From: Candidatus Zhuqueibacterota bacterium | GTDB lineage: Bacteria > SM23-31 | Direction of reading: 5' to 3' | Assembly: GCA_022562855.1 (NCBI GenBank) | Contig: JADFON010000077.1 | Coordinates: 1-7,594 of the forward strand | DNA: 7,594 bases | Part shown: piece by piece, positions 2,570-7,594 of the stretch | How positions within the stretch are numbered: the first letter of the stretch is position 1 | Layout of the letters: each line of letters starts with the position of its first letter | Made by a program: the position numbers and the translations under genes | Notes under the pieces: model-generated | The model's database searches: none | Told to the model about the DNA's origin: nothing | The model's input: the letters and a program-made list of their open reading frames with translations, nothing else

Positions 2570-3436
2570 ATGGATGATACCCGTCCTCTTGTACCGGATG
2601 CTTTTGGAGGATCGTTAAAGCAAGATGTTAATTCGGAGTTTACTATTATTGGAATTCCATTTGATGACAAGTCATCGTACCGTAAAGGAGCAGCAGGGGG
2701 TCCCGCAGCAATACGTTCCGCGTCGTCATCAAGATCGATCAATTCTTTCACCGAAACCGGTTTAGACCTTAGCAGAGATACTTCACTGTTTGATTCAGGA
2801 GATGTGGGTTACAATGAAAATTATTCATCGTTTATTTCAGAAGTTGAAAACGCTGTTTCAAGAACGGTTGAAAGAGGATCGATTCCCGTAAGCCTGGGAG
2901 GCGACCACTCTATTACATTTCCGATAGTAAAGGGAATGTTGAATCACTTTAAGAAGTTGAATTTGGTGTGGCTTGACGCTCACCCCGATATATATCCCGA
3001 ATTTGACGGAGATAAATATTCACACGCCTGCCCACTCATGAGAATATTAGAACTGGAAGGAATAGAAACGGTAATTCTGGCGGGGATCAGGGCGACGTCA
3101 CCCGATTTGAATAAGTCACTCAAAGATGCAGGCGTGCAGGTCATAACATCTTCACAATTTGAAGAAGCGTCGGGGCTTTCGCTTTCGGGTCCCACATACC
3201 TGACAATAGATATCGACCTGTTAGACCCCGCATTTGCACCCGGCGTCGGCAACCCTGTGCCAGGAGGTATTGGCACGAGGGAATTAATCGATACGATTCA
3301 TTCATTCAGATTTCCGATCGTCGGATTCGACCTGGTCGAAGTCAATCCGGCTTATGACCACTCTGCTATTACGGCGGCAGCGGGCGCAAAAATTGTAATG
3401 GAAACCATTGGACATATTGTATCGGGTAAAACCTGA
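2570..3436 (+). CDS. Arginase/agmatinase-family ureohydrolase, 288 aa
   Basis: Cytoplasmic binuclear-manganese enzyme that hydrolyses a guanidino (or formimino) group, usually releasing urea; agmatine to putrescine plus urea is the common default for this length and fold. All six expected metal ligands are visible: H113 (GGDHS), D136, H138 and D140 (LDAHPD), and D214 and D216 (TIDIDLLDPAFAPG). H152 (SHACP) and E257 (EVNPAYDH) occupy the usual active-site positions. The second metal motif reads DAHPD with SHACP, rather than DAHTD with HG-T/S as in typical SpeB, so the substrate may not be agmatine. The start ATG has AGGTGG seven bases upstream. There is no signal peptide. It is divergent from the exported peptidase gene and the next gene downstream has its own promoter, so it is probably transcribed alone. 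Alternatives are arginase, guanidinobutyrase, guanidinase or formimidoylglutamase-like activity. Confidence 0.88.
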   Translation: MDDTRPLVPDAFGGSLKQDVNSEFTIIGIPFDDKSSYRKGAAGGPAAIRSASSSRSINSFTETGLDLSRDTSLFDSGDVGYNENYSSFISEVENAVSRTVERGSIPVSLGGDHSITFPIVKGMLNHFKKLNLVWLDAHPDIYPEFDGDKYSHACPLMRILELEGIETVILAGIRATSPDLNKSLKDAGVQVITSSQFEEASGLSLSGPTYLTIDIDLLDPAFAPGVGNPVPGGIGTRELIDTIHSFRFPIVGFDLVEVNPAYDHSAITAAAGAKIVMETIGHIVSGKT

Positions 3437-3717: not shown

Positions 3718-3915
3718 ATGTATGGCACTCTTAAGGAAACAGTGGATTTCAATGAAATGAAATTACACCAGGGAACATCGGTATATATTGACCTTGCTCA
3801 AGCACAAATATATGACCAGATGGACCCTGAAGAAAGTTTGTTGGTATCGGTTGCTTTGAAATATTTTACTATCAGGGCTGATATCAAAAAATCACAAATT
3901 AAGCTTGCGGATTAA
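3718..3915 (+). CDS. Small orphan protein, 65 aa
   Basis: I do not recognise this protein. It is a short, soluble sequence with no signal peptide, cysteine or membrane segment. Residues ~1-25 look beta/loop-like (FNEMKLHQGTSVYIDL), ~26-50 look helical (AQAQIYDQMDPEESLLVSVALKYF), and the C-terminus is Lys/Ile-rich. Support for its being real: an AGGTGA-type ribosome site four bases before the ATG, the sigma54 promoter just upstream, and a stop (TAA) that abuts the next ATG as TAAATG, suggesting translational coupling to the outer-membrane protein gene. It could be a small cytoplasmic regulator or partner, or a leader cistron whose translation controls the next gene. Function unknown. Confidence 0.6.
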   Translation: MYGTLKETVDFNEMKLHQGTSVYIDLAQAQIYDQMDPEESLLVSVALKYFTIRADIKKSQIKLAD

Positions 3916-5679
3916 ATGAATATTTTCGGCAATATTTTCCGTTTAATCAGGCTGTTTTTGCAAGCAATTATGAAAATCCGGACAAGAAAATACTACATTT
4001 GGGCTAATTTCAGAAACGTTGCTATAATTTTTTTTATTACTGCATCCGTTATATTGACGCTTCATTCTTCTTCGATTGCCCAGGACGACAAATTTTCATT
4101 CAGACTGCGTGGAATGGGTGTCGGTCTGCATGGAATTATTGACGACCTGTACTCCGATCTTTCTTTAAATCCCGCATTTATACACAGATACAAAGGGAAC
4201 TGGTTATATACGAATTTCAGCAATCTCCAGGGCGGAGGGGATATATCCCAGCTAAATCAGGATCTGAATTTATCTCGGAATTTTGATTTATATCCGAATA
4301 ATTTAATTGGCGCAATAACGGACAGATTCGGTACGCCTTTCGGCATATTTATTGAAACAAGGGGATATAACTTACTAACGGATAATCTAAGTAGTAATGA
4401 ACAGTTTTTAACTGCTACTACGGGTATTATTAATGGAAGCCGTGAATTATTCGATACAGAAAACGCAAGCCAGAGTATTTCTTTTATCGGGCTTATACGG
4501 GATATCGGGATTAAAATATCGATACATCGAAATGACTTTAACCTGAAATTGTCAAGTGAGGATACTTTCAGCAGGTTTGCTGTCAGCGACACATCCGGGA
4601 ACAGAGACAATGTCGAGTTCGTAAAAAACATAACTACACGCGATTTCGATTTTCCGAATTCAATGATTGGAATTTCAGTCGGCAAGATATTCAAAAGCGA
4701 GAACCAGGAAATCAGTCTTTCGGCGGGCACCAGACCTGAAAGAACGGCGTTTCAATCAAATGAAATACTGAGCTTCTTCAAGGAGCCGCTTTTGAACGGT
4801 ATAGCAGATAAATTCGACATCCTCAACAACCGCGAGACGGGCTTTTTTGAAATGGGTCTTAGTTCGGTATTTATTAATGCACGCGTAAAAAAAATCTATC
4901 CTTCGATAAATGACTTGCAGCAAAACACTTTTAGCTTAAACTTTACCCGTTACACTGTACCTTTTGATATTAAAACCTCGGAAAATACTGTTCATGACTC
5001 TCTCGATATTGCCGGTGCATCAAGGAAAAACGTAACGTTCACACGCGACGGATTCTCCGATGCTGTTGGAGAGGGAATTCTTAACAGAGTCGAATTGGCT
5101 GTAGGGATAGAACGCCACTTCGGGAACCTGAATACATTAATCGCTTTTGGAGCAAAAATTGACTATATATGGGGCAAAACAGATATAACTTTCGGACCGG
5201 GTAAAATTGCTGAGAAACTCACAATCGATGTGGACGTTGGAGACCCTGCTGAAGAGGCGGAAAGTTTCAACCGGATCATTTCCGATAACAAGCAGTCAAC
5301 CGTTACATCAGACCTTCGGGGTACATTTCTAAGTATTCCTGTTGGCTTCGAGGCAAAAATAACGGATAGGTTTACAATCAGACTTGGCGCACGTACGATT
5401 ATACCGTTGACATTCAAGACGGAATCCGAATCGACCGTGTCCGACATGCCTGACGAATTACTACAGACGGATGAAGCCCTGACCACCTTTGTATCTCAGG
5501 ACGGACCCGGAACCGTTACTACTACCAGCACATTATTTGATGGCAAGAAATTAAATTACAATTCATACCATTTTGGAGCGAGCTTCAAAGCAAACGACAT
5601 GATAACACTTGATTTGCTCCATTTTTCCAAAGTAACGGAACTGGACACGTGGTGGTTTTCAATTGTGTTAAGATATTAA
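3916..5679 (+). CDS. Predicted outer-membrane beta-barrel protein
   Basis: A 587-residue exported protein. A hydrophobic stretch (residues ~35-49) followed by SSSIA and Q56 makes a plausible Sec signal peptide cut after A55. The mature part alternates polar and hydrophobic strands rich in Asn, Ser, Thr and aromatics. Near its start is a LSLNPAF motif (N85-P86-A87), as often seen in OmpP1/FadL- and PorV-like barrels. It ends in a strand reading WWFSIVLRY, whose final aromatic residue is typical of substrates of the BAM machinery. There is no plug or TonB-box motif I can recognise. The start is ambiguous: ATG 3916 directly follows the upstream stop (TAAATG, coupling), while ATG 3970 gives a more normal signal-peptide length; neither has a strong ribosome site. 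A porin or channel, or the outer-membrane partner of the following trans-envelope protein, are both possible. Family assignment is tentative. Confidence 0.75.
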   Translation: MNIFGNIFRLIRLFLQAIMKIRTRKYYIWANFRNVAIIFFITASVILTLHSSSIAQDDKFSFRLRGMGVGLHGIIDDLYSDLSLNPAFIHRYKGNWLYTNFSNLQGGGDISQLNQDLNLSRNFDLYPNNLIGAITDRFGTPFGIFIETRGYNLLTDNLSSNEQFLTATTGIINGSRELFDTENASQSISFIGLIRDIGIKISIHRNDFNLKLSSEDTFSRFAVSDTSGNRDNVEFVKNITTRDFDFPNSMIGISVGKIFKSENQEISLSAGTRPERTAFQSNEILSFFKEPLLNGIADKFDILNNRETGFFEMGLSSVFINARVKKIYPSINDLQQNTFSLNFTRYTVPFDIKTSENTVHDSLDIAGASRKNVTFTRDGFSDAVGEGILNRVELAVGIERHFGNLNTLIAFGAKIDYIWGKTDITFGPGKIAEKLTIDVDVGDPAEEAESFNRIISDNKQSTVTSDLRGTFLSIPVGFEAKITDRFTIRLGARTIIPLTFKTESESTVSDMPDELLQTDEALTTFVSQDGPGTVTTTSTLFDGKKLNYNSYHFGASFKANDMITLDLLHFSKVTELDTWWFSIVLRY

Positions 5680-5752: not shown

Positions 5753-7594
5753 ATGATCATTCCGACTTCAAAATATAGACTAAAAATTATAATTTCTGTC
5801 CTGTTGGTTGCTGTTCTCATTGTTGGACTGACGAATATCCATGCCCAGCAAAAGGGGATGATAACCTCTATTGGTAACAGTACGGTCAGAATAAATTGGG
5901 GAACTCTGGACGGCTTAGTCCAGGGTGTAATTCTCAATGTTTATCGTGAAGACGTGAGAATTCATCCAGCTACGGAAGAAGTTTTAGGGACAAGTGAAAA
6001 ACTGATCGGGAAAATCGAAGTAACTTCGAGCGAGCCTAATAATTCCACAGCCAGGGTGGTAGAGTTTACCAATTCTTTTAGACTCGGCGATGTAGTCAAG
6101 GTCTCTTTTGATGATTCGCAAAGACTGACAAATTTTGCACAGGAGCTCGACAAAGGAACGATTCAGGACGTAAACAACTTGATTATTACCTTTAACATGG
6201 GAATGCTGGATGGAGTGGAGCAAAATCTCCTTTTCGATATTTATCGTCAGGAGGGTGCATCTGTTCACCCGGTAACGGGCGAACCAATCGATCCCGTCCG
6301 TTTTTATATAGGCAGATTACAAGTAACAAGTACTTCCGACAATTTTTCGATGGGACAAATAATTGAACGTGAACGGGACGTGATAATCGGGGATAGGGTC
6401 GAGCTTTCAAACCTGCAGGCAGGCGATATTGCGATGGAAACTCAACCGGCGGCAGAAATGCCTGCCCCGGTAATACCAGAGACAACTATATTGCCTGAAT
6501 CTCAACAGATGACCTTTCCGGACAATATGGTCGGAACAGTAACGCGGGTTTCCGACCGGGATTTATATTTGATTTGGAGAGGGGACTACGGTGTTCCGGC
6601 GGGAAGAATATTCGGTCTTTTCCGCAGGATTGAAATCCGGCATCCGGAAACAGGATTTGTCATAGATAATCCTCTTATTCAAATCGGTACGGCAACCTTG
6701 CGTGAAACCATAGGAAAATTGGGCAGGGCGACCATTGCAACATTCGATGATGATATATTGCCACAAGATTTGGTAGGTTTATCGGAAGGTGAGACAATAT
6801 CTTCCGGTCAGGTAATTACACCGGAAAATTCCCAACAAGTTTTTGAAGCCCAGCGAAGCGACATATTGGAACTTGCACGGGAACTGGCAAATAATACTAC
6901 GCAGTTGCAGGCGGAAATGAGAATGGTGAAAGCAGATTTGGACAGGTTGGACAGGATCGACCGTGATCTCGCTGCCCAGATGGCGCTTACGCAACAAACC
7001 TTTGAATCAATAAATGAAATAAAAATGATGCTCAGGAGGGAGGGCTATTCGGTTGAGGGATTTGACCTCCCGCTTTCCCGCGCTTCAGTCGAAAGAACGG
7101 AAATACCCGGTTCGGGAATACGTAGCCTCCGTTTGAACTACACTGATGACATCACGGTCAATTTCCAATTAAAAGGCAATAACATTCTCGTTACGCTGGA
7201 AGTCGACAGTCTCGGAAATATTGTCGGTATGAGACAAGCACAGAGTATCCCTGGGCAGGACATTATCGGTATGGATTCAACGCAACAGGCAGAAGGACCT
7301 ATTACAGGACCGGGGACGTCTCTTGAAAGCGGTGAACCCGAGGAAGTGGAAAGCACACCTTTCTATAAAAGTATATTCGGTATCGCCACAATGATCGTCG
7401 TGTTATTTGGAGTTTTAGGGGCGCTTTATTTCTTCGTGCTCAAGAAAAAGAAATCGGTAGACAAAGCTGGCGGCGGTGATATGGATGCCGGAGGTAAAAG
7501 CACGGATGATGATTTTGGCGGAGAAGAAGTGGAAGAAGGCGAAGAGATTGAAGAATTAGCCCCGGACGAAGAAGAAATAGAAAGCTTTGAAGAA
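5753..7594 (+). CDS. Trans-envelope protein: three FlgT-C-like repeats, coiled coil, TM helix, acidic tail (3' truncated)
   Basis: An uninterrupted frame of 614 codons that runs off the window. Residues 1-31 are a signal peptide (hydrophobic core IIISVLLVAVLIVGL, cut likely after IHA). Three related beta-rich modules follow at ~35-117, 135-218 and 261-343. Each has G-x-I/V near its start, a DG or YG turn followed by a G/N-rich step, a Y/F-R, HPxT at 71, 172 and 297, then IG and a closing strand. The pattern resembles the C-terminal domain of flagellar protein FlgT and related envelope proteins. Residues ~359-430 look like a coiled coil, ~445-500 a small beta region, ~541-563 a transmembrane helix followed by KKKK, and ~570-614 an acidic, Glu/Asp-rich tail. 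Predicted topology: most of it periplasmic, tail in the cytoplasm. An in-frame TAG (5747-5749) shortly before the ATG fixes the first possible ATG; no clear Shine-Dalgarno is seen. It lies 73 bp after the outer-membrane protein gene, so co-transcription is likely. Function unknown. Confidence 0.85.
   Translation, partial: MIIPTSKYRLKIIISVLLVAVLIVGLTNIHAQQKGMITSIGNSTVRINWGTLDGLVQGVILNVYREDVRIHPATEEVLGTSEKLIGKIEVTSSEPNNSTARVVEFTNSFRLGDVVKVSFDDSQRLTNFAQELDKGTIQDVNNLIITFNMGMLDGVEQNLLFDIYRQEGASVHPVTGEPIDPVRFYIGRLQVTSTSDNFSMGQIIERERDVIIGDRVELSNLQAGDIAMETQPAAEMPAPVIPETTILPESQQMTFPDNMVGTVTRVSDRDLYLIWRGDYGVPAGRIFGLFRRIEIRHPETGFVIDNPLIQIGTATLRETIGKLGRATIATFDDDILPQDLVGLSEGETISSGQVITPENSQQVFEAQRSDILELARELANNTTQLQAEMRMVKADLDRLDRIDRDLAAQMALTQQTFESINEIKMMLRREGYSVEGFDLPLSRASVERTEIPGSGIRSLRLNYTDDITVNFQLKGNNILVTLEVDSLGNIVGMRQAQSIPGQDIIGMDSTQQAEGPITGPGTSLESGEPEEVESTPFYKSIFGIATMIVVLFGVLGALYFFVLKKKKSVDKAGGGDMDAGGKSTDDDFGGEEVEEGEEIEELAPDEEEIESFEE
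5855..6781 (+). repeat. Three divergent in-gene copies of an ~83-residue module
   Basis: Copies lie at about 5855-6103, 6155-6406 and 6533-6781. They are recognisable at protein level by HPATEE, HPVTGE and HPETGF at equivalent positions, each preceded by a Y/F-R strand end and followed 8-13 residues later by IG. Nucleotide similarity is low, so the duplication is old. Copies 1 and 2 are the closest pair; copy 3 is separated by a Pro/Glu-rich linker (~residues 228-258). Confidence 0.75.

Follow-up and report, generated by a model that had tools for sequence, protein, structure and literature searches.

The last gene of the window, the whole 7,594-nucleotide stretch of DNA analysed here, raises the question of what a protein that joins three copies of a module of pilus and flagellar outer rings to a coiled coil, a single transmembrane (TM) helix and an acidic tail might do in the cell envelope. 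A first-pass annotation, made from the letters alone, had listed these parts, had given no named family with the same order, and had suggested a bridge or a sensor across the envelope.

The gene and its orthologs

The gene (5753-7594, + strand) starts with an ATG at 5753, and its frame stays open to 7594, where the assembled contig ends; the window is the whole contig G000:C83 of a metagenome-assembled genome (MAG). The visible product has 614 residues, and the 3' end of the gene is cut by the contig edge. Since the ortholog C-termini lie 0-8 residues past the last aligned residue of the window protein, only the last few codons are missing. The gene is present in five of the six phylum genomes examined; the sixth, G001, is 63% complete. 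Because the orthologs, with identities of 48, 31, 28 and 28% to the window protein, come from four other genera of the phylum, the claimed open frame is a real gene and no chance frame. An Rfam scan of the window and a phage search gave no match, and a promoter scan stayed near chance level.

Against Pfam and NCBIfam the whole protein returned weak coiled-coil-type matches only. No family there covers its full order, which agrees with the earlier statement that no named family has it, and no characterised family was found that covers the whole protein. The complete order of modules, coiled coil, β domain, TM helix and tail was likewise found in no searched genome outside the phylum. The architecture is real and lineage-specific, and it is built from a known module.

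Three homologous modules related to TsaP

The N-terminal half carries three modules, each with one HPxT motif (HPAT, HPVT and HPET). Module 1, a small β-barrel of the FlgT_C/TsaP type, lies at 5852-6112 (+; residues 34 to about 120), module 2 at 6155-6418 (+; residues 135-222) and module 3, the most diverged copy, at 6518-6790 (+; residues 256-346). Module profiles were cut from a five-row ortholog alignment and compared pairwise with hhalign. The pairs align over 84-85 columns with probabilities of 99.6, 98.6 and 98.5% (E 8e-24 to 4e-15), the latter two for module 3 against modules 1 and 2; the best of the column-shuffled controls, 40 per module pair, reached 1.0, 1.2 and 22.8%. The three modules are truly homologous to one another, which bears out the repeats first marked by their HPxT motifs. 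In profile comparison the coiled coil and the β domain that follow gave no match to the modules. An AlphaFold2 model agrees, with a similar strand order in all three modules at a pLDDT of mostly about 70-84. The model of the whole protein is poor (pLDDT 57.4, pTM 0.23) and fair within the modules only, and the relative placement of the domains was left out of use.

The modules had been called FlgT-C-like, and the type stands, although FlgT itself is not the closest relative. Three of the five orthologs match Pfam FlgT_C (PF16538), at best with an E of 3.6e-5. In the window protein, module 2 reaches an E of 0.1 and 13.5 bits, against a curated cut-off of 27 bits, and the G004 ortholog scores 22.2 bits in the genome search; FlgT_C scores fall under the cut-off wherever a score is shown, and the profile homology to TsaP holds regardless. 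In a profile search of the PDB the TsaP structures 3jc8 and 6ve2 match with E values of 2.7e-9 and 2.2e-6. Profile positions 34-214 are collinear with residues 149-338 of the 6ve2 chain, which places modules 1 and 2 onto the C-terminal half of TsaP. Foldseek also puts 6ve2 first (E 1.7e-5), followed by 8z5n and FlgT (3w1e). By sequence and by fold, the nearest solved relative of the modules is TsaP, not FlgT. VIA-align gave Z scores of 12.3 for 8z5n and 11.8 for FlgT, but at an rmsd of 6-8 over ranges extending into the signal helix; the N-domains of F1-ATPase, which are unrelated, reached a Z of about 10 at an rmsd of about 2. Since these N-domains also score, the fold alone is not specific and the family call rests on the sequence profiles.

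That the protein is a component of the flagellar outer ring related to FlgT is very improbable. It has FlgT_C-like modules with fold matches to FlgT and 8z5n, and FlgH is found in four of the six phylum genomes, so that absence of flagella is no bar to a flagellar role, which is otherwise unsupported. FlgT carries one such C-terminal module and neither a TM helix nor a coiled coil. The protein of the Vibrio flagellar H ring (PDB 3w1e; FlgT_C PF16538) shares the module fold and a weak profile match with the window protein; it differs in its single copy, its other N-terminal domains and its lack of a TM helix, and the window protein remains below the Pfam cut-off. TsaP scores better by both measures, no flagellar gene was recognised near the studied gene in the loci read, and FlgH was not detected in the gene's own genome, which is 80% complete. 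Membership of the FlgT family was rejected on the order of parts, three modules followed by a coiled coil and a TM helix in place of a single C-terminal module, and on the lack of flagellar genes among the neighbours scanned.

Spread and history of the module

The module had been taken to occur normally in small periplasmic or flagellar proteins, and this needs correction. Outside the phylum, LysM proteins of the TsaP type end in two modules, and a single module is also found in FG-GAP repeat proteins. Among the proteins sampled outside the phylum, a hydropathy scan found no C-terminal TM helix. The FG-GAP proteins (e.g. L021, L024 and L032) resemble the window protein in having one module copy in their N-terminal part and differ from it in lacking the triplication, the coiled coil, the C-terminal TM helix and the acidic tail. 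Five such proteins from other phyla (L021, L024, L032, L033 and L039) join one FlgT_C-like module to FG-GAP repeats, and in family f3 (L012 and L013) an FG-GAP gene lies directly downstream of the studied gene.

Read from sequence alone, two smaller proteins of the phylum also carry the module. A paralogue in G002 (L068:4031-5185, 384 residues) appears to join a signal peptide and a single module to a C-terminal portion that resembles a barrel, with no Pfam match. A protein of 170 residues in G005 (L069:3662-4174) reads as a signal peptide followed by one module and, at the C-terminus, a TM helix; it would be the same plan in its smallest form.

In a tree of 52 distinct modules the TsaP modules group together and the three window copies fall outside them, with weak support. 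Forcing module 1 to join the first TsaP module lowers the log-likelihood by 24 units (p-AU 0.063), and forcing module 2 to join the second lowers it by 11 units (p 0.11), which suggests that descent from TsaP modules is disfavoured, though not rejected. A common origin of the three copies also escapes rejection, at a small cost (p 0.43). Because it costs little compared with the disfavoured TsaP groupings, internal triplication is the simpler history.

TsaP has a peptidoglycan-binding LysM-like domain and helps to anchor the secretin (PMC9239104); species differ in whether its loss has consequences (PMC8811193). In our literature search we found no paper that treats both FlgT and TsaP. TsaP (PDB 6ve2, 3jc8) and the window protein share two tandem modules, collinear with modules 1 and 2, and TsaP is periplasmic and sits beside an outer-membrane channel. 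TsaP begins with a LysM domain and ends after its second module, whereas the window protein has three modules, a coiled coil, a β domain, a TM helix and an acidic tail, and LysM gave no match in it or in its orthologs. Membership of the TsaP family was rejected on the missing LysM domain and on modules that, with weak support, group apart from those of TsaP.

A substitute for TsaP is a separate matter: the modules might bind a type IV pilus or type II secretin, with the inner-membrane anchor replacing the peptidoglycan anchor of TsaP. We regard this as unlikely. TsaP is the closest solved relative, and secretins and ATPases of the T2SSE/PilB/PilT type are present in all six phylum genomes; in the gene's own genome PilM-type proteins adjoin one secretin and a PilT-family ATPase lies near a second. 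In none of the six genomes was a TsaP found that combines LysM with FlgT_C, the TsaP profile matching only the window protein type or separate LysM proteins, but this absence weighs little because the genomes are incomplete MAGs. Against the substitution, the studied gene does not lie near pilus genes, and the tree sets the TsaP modules apart. The PilM of the gene's own genome is split over L070:3168-4340 and 4407-5108, 66 bp apart, into halves matching Pfam PilM_2 positions 1-142 and 181-337; this may reflect a frameshift, a fault in the assembly or a genuine split.

Coiled coil, β domain and membrane anchor

The N-terminal signal peptide (5753-5845, +; residues 1-31) has a predicted cleavage site after IHA. 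The AlphaFold2 model places a hydrophobic helix at residues 7-30, and the N-termini of L002 and L004, the two other orthologs that have one, are similar. Behind the modules follows a long helix, likely a coiled coil (6830-7042, +; residues 360-430; helix 360-429 in the model). Compared with residue shuffles, its heptad a and d positions are enriched in every one of the five orthologs (p 0.0 to 0.011), which upholds the coiled coil read from the letters.

A small conserved domain of four β-strands comes next (7079-7210, +; residues 443-486), marked by invariant residues in the motif RxxYTDDIxVxF...LLVSLxVD and by strands in a low-confidence part of the model. Few other parts of the protein are as well conserved, and this domain and the coiled coil are the parts most specific to the phylum. 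A search of 386 genomes with these two parts gave, outside the phylum, three weak matches only (E 1e-4 to 7e-4). One of them, in G269, reaches the β domain; it is a protein of 190 residues with an N-terminal TM helix and a coiled coil and without the modules, and was put down to chance similarity between coiled coils. In the other two the match is confined to the coiled coil. The YTDDI...LLVSLxVD domain is thus specific and conserved, and no described family was found for it.

A linker (residues 487-537) has very low model confidence and is probably disordered. It leads to the TM helix (7373-7441, +; residues 541-563; helix 538-570 in the model), which is followed by KKKK (7442-7453, +; residues 564-567) and a tail predicted to be cytoplasmic (7454-7594, +; residues 568-614), where 20 of 44 residues are acidic and 2 basic. 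The single TM helix, the lysines and the Glu/Asp-rich tail, all named in the first-pass annotation, recur in kind across all orthologs, with tail lengths of 30-51 residues. Given a cleaved signal peptide and the positive-inside rule, the protein is predicted to pass the inner membrane once, N-out and C-in, so the inner-membrane anchoring first suggested fits the sequence.

Such a predicted topology would also allow an envelope sensor, in which ligand binding by the modules would be passed on through the coiled coil to a cytoplasmic partner. This half of the bridge-or-sensor suggestion has gained no positive evidence and is quite improbable: Pfam and NCBIfam recognised no sensor or output domain in the protein, and no regulator was recognised next door in the loci read.

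A hub of the FimV/HubP kind, whose periplasmic part would be anchored at an envelope structure while the acidic tail recruits cytoplasmic clients, also appears improbable. FimV/HubP proteins have a signal peptide, a periplasmic binding domain, one TM helix and an acidic cytoplasmic region (PMC12918733). The window protein follows the same order, with its TM helix at 541-563 leading into an acidic region by sequence and predicted topology, and the acidic tail is kept in all orthologs. A low-complexity tail says little, however, and this one spans 30-51 residues against about 500 in FimV. The LysM-like and C-terminal TPR (FimV) domains of FimV/HubP have no Pfam match in the window protein or its orthologs, and no sequence relation was found; membership of that family was rejected on the absence of these domains.

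The upstream barrel and a candidate tether

Directly upstream, on the same strand and 73 bp away, lies a gene for a 587-residue outer-membrane β-barrel protein (3916-5679, +), the partner candidate. Its N-terminus resembles a signal peptide, and its C-terminus bears the aromatic signature of outer-membrane barrels. This barrel neighbour recurs in related genomes. In the window, L010 and L012 the barrel gene immediately precedes the studied gene in the same orientation, 73-137 bp away. In G005 (L073/L013) each of the two genes lies at the edge of its own contig, and the genes on their outer sides, one ClpC-like and one FG-GAP, are those of L012. In G003 the contig starts at the studied gene, and the genome yielded no barrel relative. 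Two adjacent genes in three MAGs and one split-contig case amount to modest evidence from synteny. Distant relatives of the barrel outside the phylum have other neighbour genes and no module, so the pairing is phylum-specific.

Profiles from Pfam, NCBIfam and the PDB recognised no family for the barrel. Its model is barrel-like at low confidence and the fold search lists generic barrels, a result that is untrustworthy because the pLDDT is 42.

The reading that we favour, with a probability of roughly 0.45, is that the gene encodes a lineage-specific, periplasm-spanning tether that is anchored in the inner membrane and holds an outer-membrane barrel through its three modules. Once the signal peptide is cleaved, the N-terminal modules would lie near the outer membrane and hold a partner there; the barrel encoded directly upstream is the most likely one, the pilus secretin a less likely one. 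The coiled coil, of roughly 70 residues, would oligomerise the protein and extend back through the peptidoglycan layer. Anchorage in the inner membrane would come from the C-terminal TM helix, and the acidic tail, which is short, may serve as a docking patch in the cytoplasm. A tie between module and barrel is favoured partly because of the paralogues in L068 and L069. By analogy, the protein would work like TsaP, with the same type of module beside an outer-membrane channel, but with an anchor in the inner membrane instead of the peptidoglycan. Of the two roles first proposed, the bridge is the one that we infer.

Such a tether would be a concrete candidate for a link from the outer to the inner membrane in an uncultured phylum. 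It would show the small β module of TsaP and FlgT to be a general adaptor for outer-membrane structures that can be given a new anchor, whether peptidoglycan (through LysM), FG-GAP repeats or the inner membrane. A phylum-specific trans-envelope machine, in which an oligomeric stalk with a cytoplasmic docking tail ties the barrel to the inner membrane, seems rather unlikely. If it existed, it would add a further coupling of barrel to inner membrane besides the TonB, secretin and Tol-Pal types, with a stalk that repurposes the module of pilus and flagellar outer rings.

Among the neighbours scanned, the recognised genes are the barrel, a peptidase S58, an agmatinase and the FG-GAP and ClpC-like genes. 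An open reading frame of 65 residues (3718-3915, +) ends directly before the start codon of the barrel gene; its window copy has no Pfam or NCBIfam match, and it is conserved in G002 (L010:3445-3729) with the pattern ...YIDLAQAQ...KYFTIR...KKSQI. Further upstream lie two divergently oriented genes, one for a peptidase S58 with a hydrophobic N-terminus (1255-2451, -) and one for an agmatinase (2570-3436, +), which stand in the same order beside this locus in L010.
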